Shown: piece after piece, positions 12,561 through 44,969 of the stretch | Layout of the letters: each line of letters starts with the position of its first letter | Numbering within the stretch: the stretch's first letter is position 1 | Program-made: the position numbers and the translations under genes | Notes under the pieces: generated by a model | Databases searched by the model: none | What the model was told of the DNA's origin: nothing | The model's input: the letters and a program-made list of their open reading frames with translations, nothing else | From: Fibrobacter succinogenes | Lineage (GTDB): Bacteria; Fibrobacterota; Fibrobacteria; Fibrobacterales; Fibrobacteraceae | DNA: 64,000 nt | Reading direction: 5' to 3' | Assembly (NCBI GenBank): GCA_902756345.1 | Contig: CACVQR010000005.1 | Coordinates: forward strand, 1 to 64,000

Positions 12561-12621
12561 ACCGCATTACCTATGTTAGCGCGTCGATGGCGATATAGTA
12601 TTTTTCTATATTTGGGCGCGG

Positions 12622-13971
12622 ATGAAAAGACTTTTAGATTTTGATAGCGAGCATTTGTGGCATCCGTATGCGGCGCTGAAAAATACTCCCGCAAGATTTC
12701 TCGCCAAGACAGCTCACGGAACAACGATAGAAACGGCAGACGGCTTGAAATTGATTGATGCCGTTTCGAGTTGGTGGTGTATGGCGCATGGGCATAACGC
12801 CCCTGAAATCGTTGAGGCGATTCAGAAGCAAAGCGAAAAGATGTGCCATGTGATGTTCGGCGGTTTTACGCACGAGCCCGCGATTGAGCTTGGCGAAAAG
12901 CTGGTGAATTTTTTGCCCGAAGGCTTGAACAAGATTTTCTTTGCGGATTCGGGAAGCATTGCCGTGGAATGTGCCGCCAAGATGGCGGTGCAGTACCAGT
13001 ATTCCCTCGGACATCCGGAGCGCTGCAAGTTGGTCGCCTTGAAGGGCGGTTACCATGGAGATACCGCAGGTGCGATGGCGCTTAGCGACCCGGACGGCAT
13101 GCATACGCTTTTCCGTGGAATCATGCCGCATCATTATTTTGCGGAACGTCCGAACTGCCGCTTTGACGAGGCTTGGAACCAGGCGGATTTCGCTTCAATG
13201 GAACGCGTCGTCGAAGAACATAAGGATGAAATTGCTGCCGTAATTTGTGAGCCCGTATTCCAGGGCGGAAACGGCATGTGGCTTTACAATGCGGGTTACC
13301 TGAAATCGCTCCGCGAACTTTGTGACCGTTACGGAATCTTGTTGATTCTAGACGAAATTGCCGCTGGTTTTTACCGCACGGGACCGCGCTTTGCGATGAT
13401 GCATACCGCTGAAAATGGAGCGAATGCTGGTGAAAACCGCGCCGGCTTTATAAAGCCGGACATCATGTGCATCGGCAAGGCGCTCACGGGCGGATGCATT
13501 ACGATGGCGGCCTGCGTTGCGTCCGAGAAGGTCGCCGAAACGATTACGAACAGCAAGATTCCTGCGTTTATGCACGGCCCTACCTACATGGCGAACCCGC
13601 TCGCTTGTGCCGCAGGAATTGCTTCGCTTTCGCTGTTCGAAAGTCGCAATTACGAGGCTAGTGTTGCACGAATTGAAAAACGCCTCAAGCAGAATCTGGA
13701 GCCGCTCCGTGCGCTTGAAAATGCGGCGGACGTGCGTGTTCTCGGCGCTATCGGAGTCTTGGAACTGAAGGCGAAACCTTCCGCAGACGACATTCTGCGC
13801 GTGATTCGCGAAACCGGCGTGTGGCTCAGGCCTTTCTGCAATTACGTTTACACGATGCCTCCGTTCATTACGACTGATTCTGAAATCGACCGCATCTGCG
13901 AAGCCATCAAGATGATTGGCGAATGTGAACCCGCGCCTGTCGTAGAAGGCGAAGACGATTTTCATGAGTAA
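12622..13971 (+). CDS. bioA: BioA, adenosylmethionine-8-amino-7-oxononanoate aminotransferase
   Basis: The 449-aa fold-type I PLP enzyme starts DFDSEHLWHPYA, the BioA signature. It shows SSWWCMAHGHNAPEI and the PLP lysine in CIGKALTGG (Lys286). It makes 7,8-diaminopelargonic acid from KAPA using S-adenosylmethionine as amino donor. It is the first gene of the biotin cluster bioA-bioW-bioF-bioD. A TATATT box is 9 bases before the ATG with no strong ribosome site, so the message may be leaderless or nearly so. No BirA-type operator was recognised. Confidence 0.95.
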   Translation: MKRLLDFDSEHLWHPYAALKNTPARFLAKTAHGTTIETADGLKLIDAVSSWWCMAHGHNAPEIVEAIQKQSEKMCHVMFGGFTHEPAIELGEKLVNFLPEGLNKIFFADSGSIAVECAAKMAVQYQYSLGHPERCKLVALKGGYHGDTAGAMALSDPDGMHTLFRGIMPHHYFAERPNCRFDEAWNQADFASMERVVEEHKDEIAAVICEPVFQGGNGMWLYNAGYLKSLRELCDRYGILLILDEIAAGFYRTGPRFAMMHTAENGANAGENRAGFIKPDIMCIGKALTGGCITMAACVASEKVAETITNSKIPAFMHGPTYMANPLACAAGIASLSLFESRNYEASVARIEKRLKQNLEPLRALENAADVRVLGAIGVLELKAKPSADDILRVIRETGVWLRPFCNYVYTMPPFITTDSEIDRICEAIKMIGECEPAPVVEGEDDFHE

Positions 13972-21217: not shown

Positions 21218-27336
<6,119 letters not shown>

Positions 27337-27348
27337 ATATTGCTCGCG

Positions 27349-27609
27349 TTAAGTGAAAACTTGTTTTGTAATGTCATTCTGGAGCCCTGTAAGGGTGATA
27401 GAATCCATATGGACCCTATCGCGCGGCGTGGCCTTGCTCCAGGGTGACAGTAAAAAATAAAGGCAAAAGCCAAATGCTTTTGCCAAACGATTGAAAAAAT
27501 TAAAGACGGAAATGAAAATCAGATGCCCGGGGAGAGTCGGCTGGTTCCGTTGCGAGATGGCTGCAACGGCTGCGCTCTGGTGTGCCACGATGGTTTCCGA
27601 TATTTTCAT
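27349..27609 (-). CDS. Possible pyrimidine-operon leader peptide
   Basis: An 86-codon frame starts at an ATG 9 bases after a TATATT box and ends 12 bases before carA. The coding strand has a U-rich stretch (FISVFNFF region, about 27500-27530) just before a terminator hairpin (27452-27484) that lies inside the frame. This resembles the E. coli pyrBI leader, where slow transcription at U-rich tracts under low UTP lets the ribosome reach and disrupt the terminator. The peptide itself matches no family, and its last third is built from an intergenic repeat. Confidence 0.45.
   Translation of the reverse strand: MKISETIVAHQSAAVAAISQRNQPTLPGHLIFISVFNFFNRLAKAFGFCLYFLLSPWSKATPRDRVHMDSITLTGLQNDITKQVFT
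27360..27450. repeat. GTCATTCTGGAGC-type intergenic repeat
   Basis: Inverted ends ATGTCATTCTGGAGCCC and GCTCCAGGGTGACA flank a middle containing the nested palindrome-like ATAGAATCCATATGGACCCTA. It belongs to the same broad class as the other GTCAT-ended repeats and sits between the attenuator hairpin and carA. Confidence 0.6.
27452..27484 (-). terminator. Attenuator-type terminator before carA
   Basis: On the minus strand GGCAAAAGC pairs with GCTTTTGCC around a 5-base loop and is followed by TTTATTTTTT. It is about 115 bases upstream of carA, within a possible leader ORF and after a U-rich stretch, so it is placed to control the pyrimidine operon. Confidence 0.75.
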
Positions 27610-27790
27610 CGGGCTCAAAATATAGTAAATCTTGAGCCAAGGGAGGAAGAGTGTTTTTGAATAATTTTTTTGAGTCACGAGGGGTTAAACTTTTTTAAAA
27701 GCATCCGCCGGCGCGGGGCCGACGAATTGCATTTTGAGGTTCGGATTATTATGAGGTTTTGGAGTACAATTAGTAAATAAATTGGCATTT

Positions 27791-27830: not shown

Positions 27831-29951
27831 CTAATAGATGAACAACATCTCACGATACTTCGGCAGCGGCCACTTTTCGTCGGGCACGATGCTTTCGATC
27901 TTGTCCACGATAATGCGGAGGTTTGCCATAGCGTCGAGAATGACTTCGTGCTTTTCGCCGAGGGCGGTTTCCATCTGGGCGACTGCGGCTTCAAGTTCCT
28001 TGAGCTTGTCGCCGAGTTCGCGAGCGTAACCGTCTACAGCGTAGAAGCCCTGGCCCTTAGCTAACTCGTTGGTCTTCAATGCGTTAGAGTAGGCGCAGAG
28101 TACCTGCGGGAGCACCACGTTCTTCGCGATGTCGAAAGCGATCTTGCCTTCGATGTGAATCTTCTTGTGGTAATCTTCCATGTTGACTTCGTAGCGGGAG
28201 TCGAGTTCGCGCTTGTTGAACACGCCGTACTTTTCGAACAGAGCCACGTTTTCCTTCTTGGCGAGGGCCTGGAGGGCTTCCATGGTGGTGCGAACGTTCG
28301 GGAGGCCGCGCTTGGCAGCTTCTTCGACCCATTCGTCGGTGTAGCCGTTGCCGTTGAAAATCACGCGCTTGTGTTCCTTCACGATCTTCTGCAACAGGTT
28401 CTGCAGTTCTTCGTGGAACTTGTCGGCCGGAACGCTCTGCAGCTTGTCGGCGATGAGGTCGAAGGCTTCGGCGACGATGGTGTTGAGGATAACGTTTGGT
28501 TCGGAGCAACTCTGGCTAGAACCCGGAGCGCGGAATTCGAACTTGTTGCCGGTGAAGGCGAACGGAGAAGTACGGTTACGGTCGGTAGCGTCGCGCGGGA
28601 GCGGCGGGAGAGTGTCAGAACCGAGCTTCAGTGCACCGGCCTGCTTGCTGGACTTCGGATCGCCCTTTTCGAGCTGGTCGATGACGTCGGCGAGCTGGTC
28701 GCCCAGGTACATGGAGATGATTGCCGGAGGAGCTTCGTTGGCACCGAGACGGTGGTCGTTACCGGCGCTAGCGACTGCCATGCGGAGTAAGTCGGCGTGG
28801 GTGTCGACAGCGTAGATGACAGCGCAGAGCGTGGTGAGGAAGATGGCGTTCTGGTGCGGGTCCTTGCCCGGGTTCAACAGGTTCACCTTGCCGTAGTTCA
28901 CGGACCAGTTGTTGTGCTTGCCGGAACCGTTGATGCCGGCGAACGGCTTTTCGTGCAGCAGGCAAACGAGTCCGTGGCGGTCGGCAACCTGGCGGAGCAC
29001 TTCCATAATCTGCATGTTGTGGTCGCAAGCGAGGTTCACTTCCTCGAACATCGGGGCAAGTTCGAACTGTGCAGGAGCGACTTCGTTGTGGCGGGTCTTG
29101 GCCGGAATGCCGAGCTTCCAGAGTTCCTTTTCAACGTCGTTCATGAAGTTGATGATGCGAGCCGGAATGCTACCGAAGTAGTGGTCTTCCATCTGCTGGT
29201 GCTTGGCAGGGGCTGCACCGAACAAGGTGCGACCGGCCTGGTACAGGTCCGGGCGCTGCAGGTAGAAACGCTTGTCAATCAAGAAATATTCCTGTTCGGC
29301 ACCGAGAGTGACGGTGACCTTCTGCTGAGCGACGCCGAAGAGACCCATAAGGCGGTCGGCGGACTTCTGGAGAGCCTGAATGGAACGGAGAAGCGGAGTC
29401 TTCTTGTCCAAGGCTTCGCCGGTGTAGCTACAGAATGCGGTCGGGATGCAAAGCGTTGCGCCGTTGCCGTGGCGCTTGATGAAGGCCGGAGAGGTCGGAT
29501 CCCAGGCGGTATAGCCGCGGGCTTCGAAAGTAGAGCGGAGGCCGCCGCTCGGGAAAGACGATGCGTCCGGTTCGCCGACGATCAGGTTCTTGCCGCTGAA
29601 GGCCATGATGGCCTTGCCGTTTTCGGGTTCCAGGAAGGAATCGTGTTTTTCGGCGGTGGAACCGGTGAGGGGCTGGAACCAGTGCGTAAAGTGGGTGGCG
29701 CCGCGGTCGATGGCCCATTTTTTTATGGCATGTGCCACTTCGTTCGCGATGCTCGCGTCAAGCGGTGCGCCCTCGTCGATGGTGGCGAAAAGCTTCTTGC
29801 AGATGTCCTTGGGCAGGTAGGCGCGCATGGCCTCTGCGTTAAAGACATCCTCTCCGTAAAAGTCGAGGCTTGCGGGGGCGGCAGGCATATTTTCGCCTGC
29901 GTTTTCGCTCGCGATTTCCTTGATGGCTTTTAATCTGTATTCGTTGCTCAT
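27831..29951 (-). CDS. glnN: Type III glutamine synthetase (GlnN)
   Basis: At 706 aa it has the length of GSIII rather than GSI (about 450). GSIII features include the N-terminal [49 protein letters not shown] and [18 protein letters not shown]. It assimilates ammonia into glutamine using ATP. GSIII is typical of Bacteroidetes, Fibrobacter and some clostridia. The start follows AGGAGATTGCC. It stands alone between the pyrimidine operon and a FISUMP gene. Confidence 0.95.
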
Positions 29952-42620: not shown

Positions 42621-44969
42621 TTAACCTTTTCCGTATGGTTTTGTAAGGTACACGAGCGCCGTGGTGAGCGTGTAGTCGGCAAGGAGTGCGGCACCGAGGC
42701 CCACGATGGAGAGCAAACCCACGTTGTGGAGGGCCCCCATGGGGCTGAAAATGAACACGAAGAACATCGCGCAAAGGATGAAAGTGGTCATGCCCATGGT
42801 CTTTCCGATTTCGCGGTAAGAGAGCAGTAACGCGTGCCTGTAACTACCCGTGCGTTCAAAGCCGTATTTGATGTGGTTGTTCATGTGGATGGTATCGTCG
42901 ACGGCGATGCCCAAAATCATTGGCATCACGATCATCGTAATCATGTCGAGCGGCATGCCCGAATAGCCCATGACGCCGCCTATCAGGAGAACCGGCGCTA
43001 CGTTTGGAATCATCCCGATAAGGCCCGCCTTGATGCTTCCGAACGCAAGAATCATCATGATGGCGATAATCACGAATGAACCGCCGAAGGAGCGCAGAAG
43101 TCCGCCGACCAGTTTGCCGTTCATTTCGGCGTAGTTCACAACTTCGCCCACCACGGAGACTTTTGCGTCGGGGAAAATGCGGGCGGCATAGGCGTTTGCC
43201 GAATCCAGGTCTTCTACGATTTTGTTGGCATCGTAGCCGGCGAGTTCTATGTGAATGAAGGTTGTCTTGTATTCTTCGTCCATGCGTTCAAAGAGCGCGT
43301 CGGGGTCCGAGATTTCGTACAGGAACAGCAGTTGCGTGAGCATGTCCTGCGCGTCGGGAATCTTGTAATACTCGATGCTGTCGGCGTTCAGCGTGCGATT
43401 CATCTCTTTCACGAGGCGCGTCACCGATTGCACGCGCGGCTTGTCGCCCGAAATTTTCGTGAGCTGGAGCGTTCCGAGTTTTTGTTCAAGTTGCTCGATG
43501 CGCTTCATATTGGCGGGATCCTTGAGCGCATCCGCGTCATCGAATTCCACCATCACGTTAAAGTCGTAAAGGCTTCCGAGTTTTCCGCTGAGCATGTCCT
43601 TGAGCCGCACCACGAAGGGAATCTTTTCGCCCATAGTTTCGGTGTAGTCCATATTCACGTCGATACGCATCATGCCTGGAACTTGCAACAGCATAATTGC
43701 GGCCGAAATCACTGCGACAATAACGCTGTGCCTGCACACCTTGCGCCCGAAGAATTCAAAGAGAATGTCCGCCTTGGTGGCCCCTGCGGACTTTACCTGC
43801 GTCGGGTCGGGTTCTGCGTTCTTGCCGAAGCTCATGAGAATCGGAATCAAGATGATGACATACAGATAAACCATCGTGACGATGCCCGCTGAAATCCCGC
43901 CAATCCAGCGGATAGGGCGAATGCCTGCGAACAGGAACGAAATCAGCGATGCGACCGTGGTAATGACGGTAAAGAGGATGGGCCAGCCCGTCTCTTCGAC
44001 GGCGTAAATCACGGATTCGCGGCGGTTGCCCGTGCGCCTAAAGTGCATGCGGAATGAATTGATGTAGTGAATGGAATAGCCCACCGAAAGTGCCATGCCT
44101 AAAAGCACCGGGAGCGCGACCATGCTCTCGTCGCCGACAACGCCGAGCCACGCATTAATGCCGAGTACCGAAGCGATGCCGCCGACTGTTGCAATCGCGG
44201 GCACCACCACGCCACGCAACGACCTTACAAACAAGATAAGGCATACAAGCATCACCAGGAACCCGAAACCGATACGCATGGCGCATTCTCGCGAGATGAC
44301 TTCGTTTTCTTCCATCTCGGTGTAGCTCATGCCCGTCGGGAGCATCTCGAACTTGTCGCTTTTGAATTCGTCGGAATAGATGACGTTGCGAGCAAAAGGC
44401 GCGATACTGTCCTTGCCAAAATTGACGCCGCCTTCGTATGATTTCAGCGCGAGAATAATCCAGGTTTCTTTCGCGTCGTCAGAAACGATGTTGTTCACGA
44501 GCGATTCGCGAGAAAGAATTAGCCGTTTTTTCGCTTCCAGTTCCTGCGGGTCAGTGGGAACGCCGCCCTCGAAGGGATTGATGACTTCAAAACCTTCGTC
44601 ATTTGCGACCGGAATCGACAAATTGTGCGTCAGTGAAACCACACGGTCGGCATACGGGACCTCGTTTTCGAGCCTGCGCGAAAGCCTGTCGATTGCCTGC
44701 AACACCTCTGGCGCAAAAACGTCGTCGGCGCGGACCATCACCATGTAGCCGTCGTCGCTACCGAATTTTTCGTTGAAGTGCGCCTGATCAATTTTCACCT
44801 TATCCCAGTCGTCAAACCATTCCTCTTCGCTGCTCGTCATCTGCAATTGCGGGAGCCCGAGGCACGCCAAAAAAGTCACAATTGCCGTTACCAGCAGAAT
44901 CAACCAGCGAAACTTCACCTGAAAACGCCCTAATCGGGCAAAAACCTTGTTGACACGAGAAACTTGCAT
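42621..44969 (-). CDS. Second RND-family (MMPL-type) permease
   Basis: The 782-aa protein is a paralogue of the permease at 36972-39347, with the same two-repeat layout and MIVMPMILGIAVDDTIHMNNH as the relay motif. The first loop (TSSEEEWFDDWDKVKIDQAHF) differs, so its cargo may differ. It is followed by a ZIP transporter and preceded by the shared promoter element, which ties it to the same control as FeoAB and TonB. Confidence 0.87.
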   Translation of the reverse strand: MQVSRVNKVFARLGRFQVKFRWLILLVTAIVTFLACLGLPQLQMTSSEEEWFDDWDKVKIDQAHFNEKFGSDDGYMVMVRADDVFAPEVLQAIDRLSRRLENEVPYADRVVSLTHNLSIPVANDEGFEVINPFEGGVPTDPQELEAKKRLILSRESLVNNIVSDDAKETWIILALKSYEGGVNFGKDSIAPFARNVIYSDEFKSDKFEMLPTGMSYTEMEENEVISRECAMRIGFGFLVMLVCLILFVRSLRGVVVPAIATVGGIASVLGINAWLGVVGDESMVALPVLLGMALSVGYSIHYINSFRMHFRRTGNRRESVIYAVEETGWPILFTVITTVASLISFLFAGIRPIRWIGGISAGIVTMVYLYVIILIPILMSFGKNAEPDPTQVKSAGATKADILFEFFGRKVCRHSVIVAVISAAIMLLQVPGMMRIDVNMDYTETMGEKIPFVVRLKDMLSGKLGSLYDFNVMVEFDDADALKDPANMKRIEQLEQKLGTLQLTKISGDKPRVQSVTRLVKEMNRTLNADSIEYYKIPDAQDMLTQLLFLYEISDPDALFERMDEEYKTTFIHIELAGYDANKIVEDLDSANAYAARIFPDAKVSVVGEVVNYAEMNGKLVGGLLRSFGGSFVIIAIMMILAFGSIKAGLIGMIPNVAPVLLIGGVMGYSGMPLDMITMIVMPMILGIAVDDTIHMNNHIKYGFERTGSYRHALLLSYREIGKTMGMTTFILCAMFFVFIFSPMGALHNVGLLSIVGLGAALLADYTLTTALVYLTKPYGKG

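Follow-up and report, generated by a model that had tools for sequence, protein, structure and literature searches.

A conserved leader reading frame spanning an intrinsic terminator before carA-pyrG-carB in Fibrobacter, a candidate UTP-sensing attenuator of the pyrBI type

The stretch of Fibrobacter succinogenes DNA analysed here, 64,000 nt long and called the window below, carries on its minus strand three genes that overlap end to start in the list of open reading frames (ORFs): carA, for the small chain of carbamoyl-phosphate synthase (26158..27336; Pfam CPSase_sm_chain 1.9e-42, GATase 1.7e-54), pyrG, for CTP synthase (24474..26171, overlapping the end of carA), and carB, for the large chain of carbamoyl-phosphate synthase (21218..24496, overlapping the end of pyrG), the last two identified from their own sequence. 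Carbamoyl phosphate and CTP are the products of the enzymes that they encode. The 5' neighbour in the same list and direction is glnN (27831-29951, minus strand), and the question raised by the locus is what the 494 nt between glnN and carA on that strand are for. Read 5' to 3', this gap holds a TATATT box, the motif CCCG, the start of a leader ORF, a hairpin, a U-rich tract, an intrinsic terminator, a repeat and the stop of the leader ORF, and then carA itself. To our knowledge, UTP-sensing attenuation coupled to translation has been known mainly from enterobacterial pyrBI and pyrE. Our preferred reading, to which we give a probability of roughly three in four on the strength of the sequence comparisons below, is that this leader is a translation-coupled attenuator of the pyrBI type that senses UTP.

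The leader ORF (27349..27609, minus strand) comprises 86 codons, spans the terminator and closes with a TAA (27351-27349) that leaves 12 nt before the carA ATG (27336). An earlier note on this DNA had described a leader with a U-rich stretch, a strong terminator inside it and an end 12 nt short of carA, and the window bears all of this out; it had also let the leader start at 27624, directly after the TATATT box, of which the placement after the box stands, but the ORF begins at 27609, 27624 being where the box itself starts. Among 80 genomes of the genus, carA was found in 59, of which 58 have readable upstream DNA, and all 58 carry the leader; as members of one genus they are related, and counts over them are not counts of independent events. 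Conservation in relatives was the check that the earlier note had proposed, and the hairpin, the U-rich tract and the frame are all retained in the 58. Nine distances from ATG to terminator occur among them (62, 95, 125, 128, 131, 134, 140, 143 and 188 nt), every one of them 2 modulo 3, and the frame up to the terminator is intact throughout despite at least eight different indel lengths, where eight frame-blind length changes would all be divisible by three only about once in 6,500 cases. The ORF also extends beyond the terminator in each genome, and its stop falls between 8 nt inside carA and 38 nt before it in 56 of them, 29 of the 58 having a TGA that overlaps the carA start (ATGA); the exceptions, L143 and L156, with stops 99 and 54 nt upstream of carA, count against the preferred reading.

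The gene 5' of the leader varies from genome to genome (glnN in some, others elsewhere) while the leader stays, which assigns the leader to carA. This bears on the plainest alternative, that the hairpin is the ordinary terminator of the upstream gene and the ORF a chance one. The presence of glnN upstream in the same direction in the window would suit it, but a promoter stands at fixed spacing before the terminator, the frame is kept in 58 of 58 genomes, and in many genomes the terminator is only about 40 nt from carA, too short a gap for another full promoter; we regard this alternative as extremely improbable. As a candidate, an upstream-gene terminator was rejected, the leader remaining with carA when the neighbour changes.

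The peptide itself has no protein family match above the cut-off, and a search of the leader's own genome found no further copies of it, the matches being the repeat and short stretches. When L018 and L166 (the leaders of G009 and G067) are compared with the main clade, 18 codons of the stretch SIEAHL..AVA.ISQRNQ show 11 synonymous changes and 3 nonsynonymous ones, a pattern suggestive of selection on the peptide as such; the leader peptides of other clades are very unlike this stretch.

The terminator (27452..27484, minus strand) consists of the stem GGCAAAAGC-ATTTG-GCTTTTGCC at 27484-27462, followed by the U tail TTTATTTTTT. Its hairpin is predicted at -13.9 kcal/mol (z -3.2 against shuffles), its sequence is single-copy in the 3.36-Mb genome with 2 mismatches allowed, and an intrinsic terminator lies inside the ORF in all 58 relatives. 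In 19 of the 20 leaders tested, the terminator is stronger than the best upstream pairing open to its 5' arm, the exception being L168 (-13.1 kcal/mol upstream against -12.5 for the terminator), and there is accordingly little sign of an antiterminator in these 20. Comparison with Rfam gave no match at the gathering score, and a lax threshold returned only sub-threshold matches on the other strand.

A terminator in a pyrimidine leader could instead be worked by PyrR, which, with UMP or UTP bound, would attach to the leader RNA and promote termination as in Bacillus. The genus does encode pyrR, a possible other regulator and in that respect a point against the preferred reading, and it does so in the form pyrR-pyrB-pyrC; scored against what we take to be the PyrR box consensus, 22 of 58 leaders hold a near-box, AATCCATCGAGGCA, with 2 mismatches of 11, above the number in shuffles. 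By the same assumed consensus, however, the box is broken in the leader of the window (4 mismatches) and in other clades, and where it occurs it lies about 100 nt upstream of the terminator, and there is hardly any trace of an antiterminator. No Rfam PyrR match appears up to E 5, and PyrR control would leave both the conserved frame and the U-rich tract unexplained, so that such control of the car leader seems unlikely. PyrR is encoded in the pyrR-pyrB-pyrC operon (L043/L067, G000:C10 about 43170-44154), and that operon shows no recognisable attenuator leader.

Between the hairpin and the terminator lies the U-rich tract (27485..27534, minus strand; 48% T in the window), which we propose as a UTP-sensitive pause region. 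Over the 58 genomes the 50 nt upstream of the terminator average 50% T, with a range of 36-64%, whereas 8,077 windows of coding sequence from four neighbouring genes average 18.5% T with a maximum of 38%, a maximum that the tract exceeds in 57 of the 58 leaders. The first part of the leader, for its part, has 18% T. Synonymous choice is shifted in the same sense, the ratio of NNT to NNC codons being 595:189 in the tract against 365:1355 in coding sequence, and that of TTT to TTC for Phe 147:64 against 21:89, from which we conclude that by these codon counts the tract is selected for U in the RNA and not for Phe in the peptide.

This shift bears directly on the alternative of amino-acid attenuation, in which the ribosome would stall at Phe (or other) codons when charged tRNA runs short. 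Phe is indeed the most frequent residue of the tract, with 211 codons over the 58 leaders, but Phe sensing would not require T-rich synonymous sites, the ORF passes through the terminator instead of ending before it, antiterminator pairing is hardly to be seen, and carA-pyrG-carB is unrelated to Phe; the alternative is very unlikely. Very unlikely, too, is a leader that reads general translation or growth rate, opened by a slowed polymerase or boosted ribosomes with UTP not the specific signal. The anatomy would require coupling alone, and a nearby ribosome weakens a terminator that lies in a translated frame (PMC4824070), which speaks for it; the step from a U-poor first part (18% T) to a U-rich tract (50% T), together with the products of the operon, nevertheless points to UTP.

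In the preferred reading, transcription would start no more than about 4 nt from the leader AUG, and the polymerase would pass the U-poor first part fast and then meet the hairpin and the U-rich tract. At low UTP it would pause in the tract, letting the translating ribosome close in and mask the terminator 5' arm, and with a ribosome there transcription would read through into carA-pyrG-carB; at high UTP the polymerase would outpace the ribosome, the terminator would form and transcription would end. A leader ORF that spans the terminator and runs to the carA start would allow the ribosome to stay behind the polymerase, and may let it hand over to carA by reinitiation. Promoter spacing, open frame, tract, terminator, their conservation and the stop position can be read from the sequences directly, and we infer UTP sensing itself, and with it pausing, from this arrangement. 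One point against the preferred reading is that carA is needed for arginine synthesis as well, a demand that a UTP sensor would ignore.

The promoter region is as constant as the frame. The -10 box TATATT of the carA operon (27619..27624, minus strand) corresponds to a TAnnnT hexamer that stands 9 nt (45 genomes) or 8 nt (13 genomes) upstream of the leader ATG, in all 58, and such a box occupies the equivalent spot in 4 of the 45 long ORFs of the window. In 57 of the 58 genomes a motif YCCG abuts the leader ATG, and the remaining one has TTCG; in the window the motif is CCCG (27610..27613, minus strand), at positions 6-9 past the -10 box, and from this spacing it is the probable region of the transcription start. 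The usual -10 spacing, if it applies, would put that start 1-4 nt before the leader AUG, and the transcript is for that reason probably leaderless or nearly so; no Shine-Dalgarno sequence precedes the leader ATG, and no start-site map for Fibrobacter was found in the open-licence papers searched. Elsewhere in the window, the ATG of the ORF at 12622 (12601-12622) is likewise preceded, at 9 nt, by a TATATT box (CTATATTTGGGCGCGG-ATG), and this ORF is another candidate for a leaderless transcript.

Around the leader AUG lies a small hairpin, P1 (CCGAU-GAAAAU-AUCGG; 27597..27612, minus strand), whose 5-bp stem CCGAU/AUCGG is present in every main-clade leader with a loop of varying length and sequence, and is absent from the two other Fibrobacter clades. 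The codon whose third base closes the stem is ATA, AAA, ACA or GTA in 35 leaders, so that the residue varies and the third base is always A; ATA makes up 1 of 167 Ile codons in neighbouring genes, and rare codons preserve the P1 arm. Folding gives P1 -4.4 kcal/mol in a transcript that starts at C, against -0.4 kcal/mol in one that starts at G.

These energies invite a different account, in which the main sensor would be start-site control like that of pyrC and pyrD: with ample CTP, transcription would begin at C, P1 would hide the AUG, the leader would go untranslated and the terminator would act, and with scarce CTP, it would begin at G and the leader would be translated. Of the 58 genomes, 57 have YCCG where the start is expected, and in the main clade P1 has been kept by means of rare codons, both as this account would have it, but two of the three clades have no P1, whereas all of them have the U-rich tract, the tract would be left unexplained, and the position of the start is itself derived from spacing. 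As the main sensor we consider it unlikely. It need not compete with pyrBI-type attenuation, since pyrC-like switching (for which E. coli pyrC is the precedent; PMC7818426) may have been added on top in the main clade. The result would be a sensor of two layers on a single leader that is leaderless or nearly so, in which the choice between C and G starts would free or hide the AUG through P1 in response to CTP, and the U-rich tract would govern, in response to UTP, whether the ribosome catches up. We hold this composite to be possible but doubtful; if true, the mechanisms of pyrC and pyrBI would be joined in one element ahead of the genes that make carbamoyl phosphate and CTP.

A second hairpin, P2 (CCGUUGC-loop-GCAACGG; 27547..27569, minus strand; -9.6 kcal/mol, z -3.5), stands 5' of the U-rich tract as a possible pause hairpin. 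Different hairpins hold its position in other clades, among them CCGACC/GGUCGG, ACCGACC/GGUCGGU, GGCUU/AAGCC and CAUACC/GGUAUG, and the codons of its arms are rare in neighbouring genes (CGG 0 of 124 Arg codons, CAA 14 of 88 Gln, GTT 26 of 198 Val), while those of the loop vary. Position, rare arm codons and replacement by other hairpins are what support P2. That it is an exceptionally strong hairpin was considered and rejected, the mean z against synonymous-codon shuffles being about 0. With P2 not above these shuffles and pausing in E. coli pyrL reported to be independent of a hairpin (PMC9291695), its role in pausing is uncertain.

Where the leader ends is a matter in its own right. Between terminator and carA the window holds a dispersed repeat (TGTCA...TGACA; 27372..27449, minus strand) with other copies in the genome, which confirms, at 27449-27372, the claim of the earlier note that the last part of the leader is repetitive. 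The same repeat (TGTCACCCTGGAGC...GCTCCAGAATGACA) is found at this site in L010, L138, L142 and L153 and is missing from the closest relative, L006; dispersed repeats are frequent in this interval, and several other families occupy the same spot in other species. The further suggestion that the exact stop may be accidental holds in part: the repeat does shift the stop in this genome, but, besides the many stops that overlap the carA start, in 21 of 23 distinct long spacers the leader frame closes no more than 40 nt from carA, against 13 and 7 for the other two frames. Judged by these frames, the exact stop in the window is determined by the repeat, yet a leader that reaches carA is maintained. 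The leader region of the window (27336-27760) is moreover a mosaic: identity to L006 is 99% over the 150 nt upstream, but the leader itself matches L145, of a more distant species, at 96-98% identity, which suggests that leaders have been exchanged between species.

No such leader was seen before carA in the order relative L022 or in the eleven class and phylum relatives that were read, and inspection by eye of pyrR-pyrB-pyrC, pyrE, pyrD and pyrF in the same genome found no recognisable leader of this design; on these grounds the device appears to be confined to Fibrobacter as a genus and to the car operon among those pyr genes that were looked at. A literature search likewise found no description of a Fibrobacter carA leader, though it was limited to open-licence sources and such absence is not proof. 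Sharing no sequence with its enterobacterial counterpart, the Fibrobacter device possibly evolved independently. If the preferred reading is true, attenuation in Fibrobacter, where both the operon and the sequences differ, would suggest that the mechanism arose more than once, and transcription and translation in this phylum would be coupled tightly enough for attenuation, and this on a leader whose 5' untranslated region is probably close to nil. In a major degrader of cellulose in the rumen, the leader would also serve as a natural reporter of how well nucleotides are supplied, and it offers point changes that can be tested.

Several known systems can be set beside the Fibrobacter leader. 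The carAB promoter P1 of E. coli controls the same genes and likewise responds to UTP, but its control works at initiation, through reiterative transcription and several DNA-binding proteins, with no attenuator (PMC6245113). With the PyrR-dependent pyr attenuators (Bacillus; Rfam PyrR) the Fibrobacter leader has in common a terminator in a pyr leader and a pyrR gene in the genome; unlike them, its box is degenerate and not conserved, there is little sign of an antiterminator, and its leader ORF is predicted to be translated. Like E. coli pyrC and pyrD, it has YCCG 6-9 nt past the -10 box and, in the main clade, a 5' hairpin predicted only for the transcript that starts at C, although here the switch would act on the leader ORF of an attenuator, not on a structural gene, in one clade only and from a start placed by spacing. 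The nearest likeness is to E. coli pyrBI; pyrBI and pyrE respond to UTP through pausing and attenuation, ribosome coupling across pyrL blocking the terminator (PMC7818426; PMC5021804). The Fibrobacter leader differs from pyrBI in controlling carA-pyrG-carB and in belonging to another phylum, with similarity of leader sequence neither expected nor seen, and its tract is far more U-rich, averaging 50% T where no 50-nt stretch of pyrL exceeds 36%. It is also without a Shine-Dalgarno sequence and probably leaderless or nearly so, whereas pyrL has GGAGG, and it often overlaps the gene start (ATGA), whereas the pyrL stop lies 3 nt before pyrB. The same measurement applied to pyrL of E. coli K-12 finds a hairpin GCGUC/GACGC about 32 nt past the ATG, a U-rich stretch, and, at about 89 nt, a terminator inside the ORF. 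Both leaders precede a pyrimidine operon and have a Phe-rich 3' half, and both consist of an ORF, a hairpin, a U-rich stretch, a terminator inside the ORF and a stop near the first gene, in identical order, in support of the pyrBI-like arrangement that the earlier note had put forward as possible.
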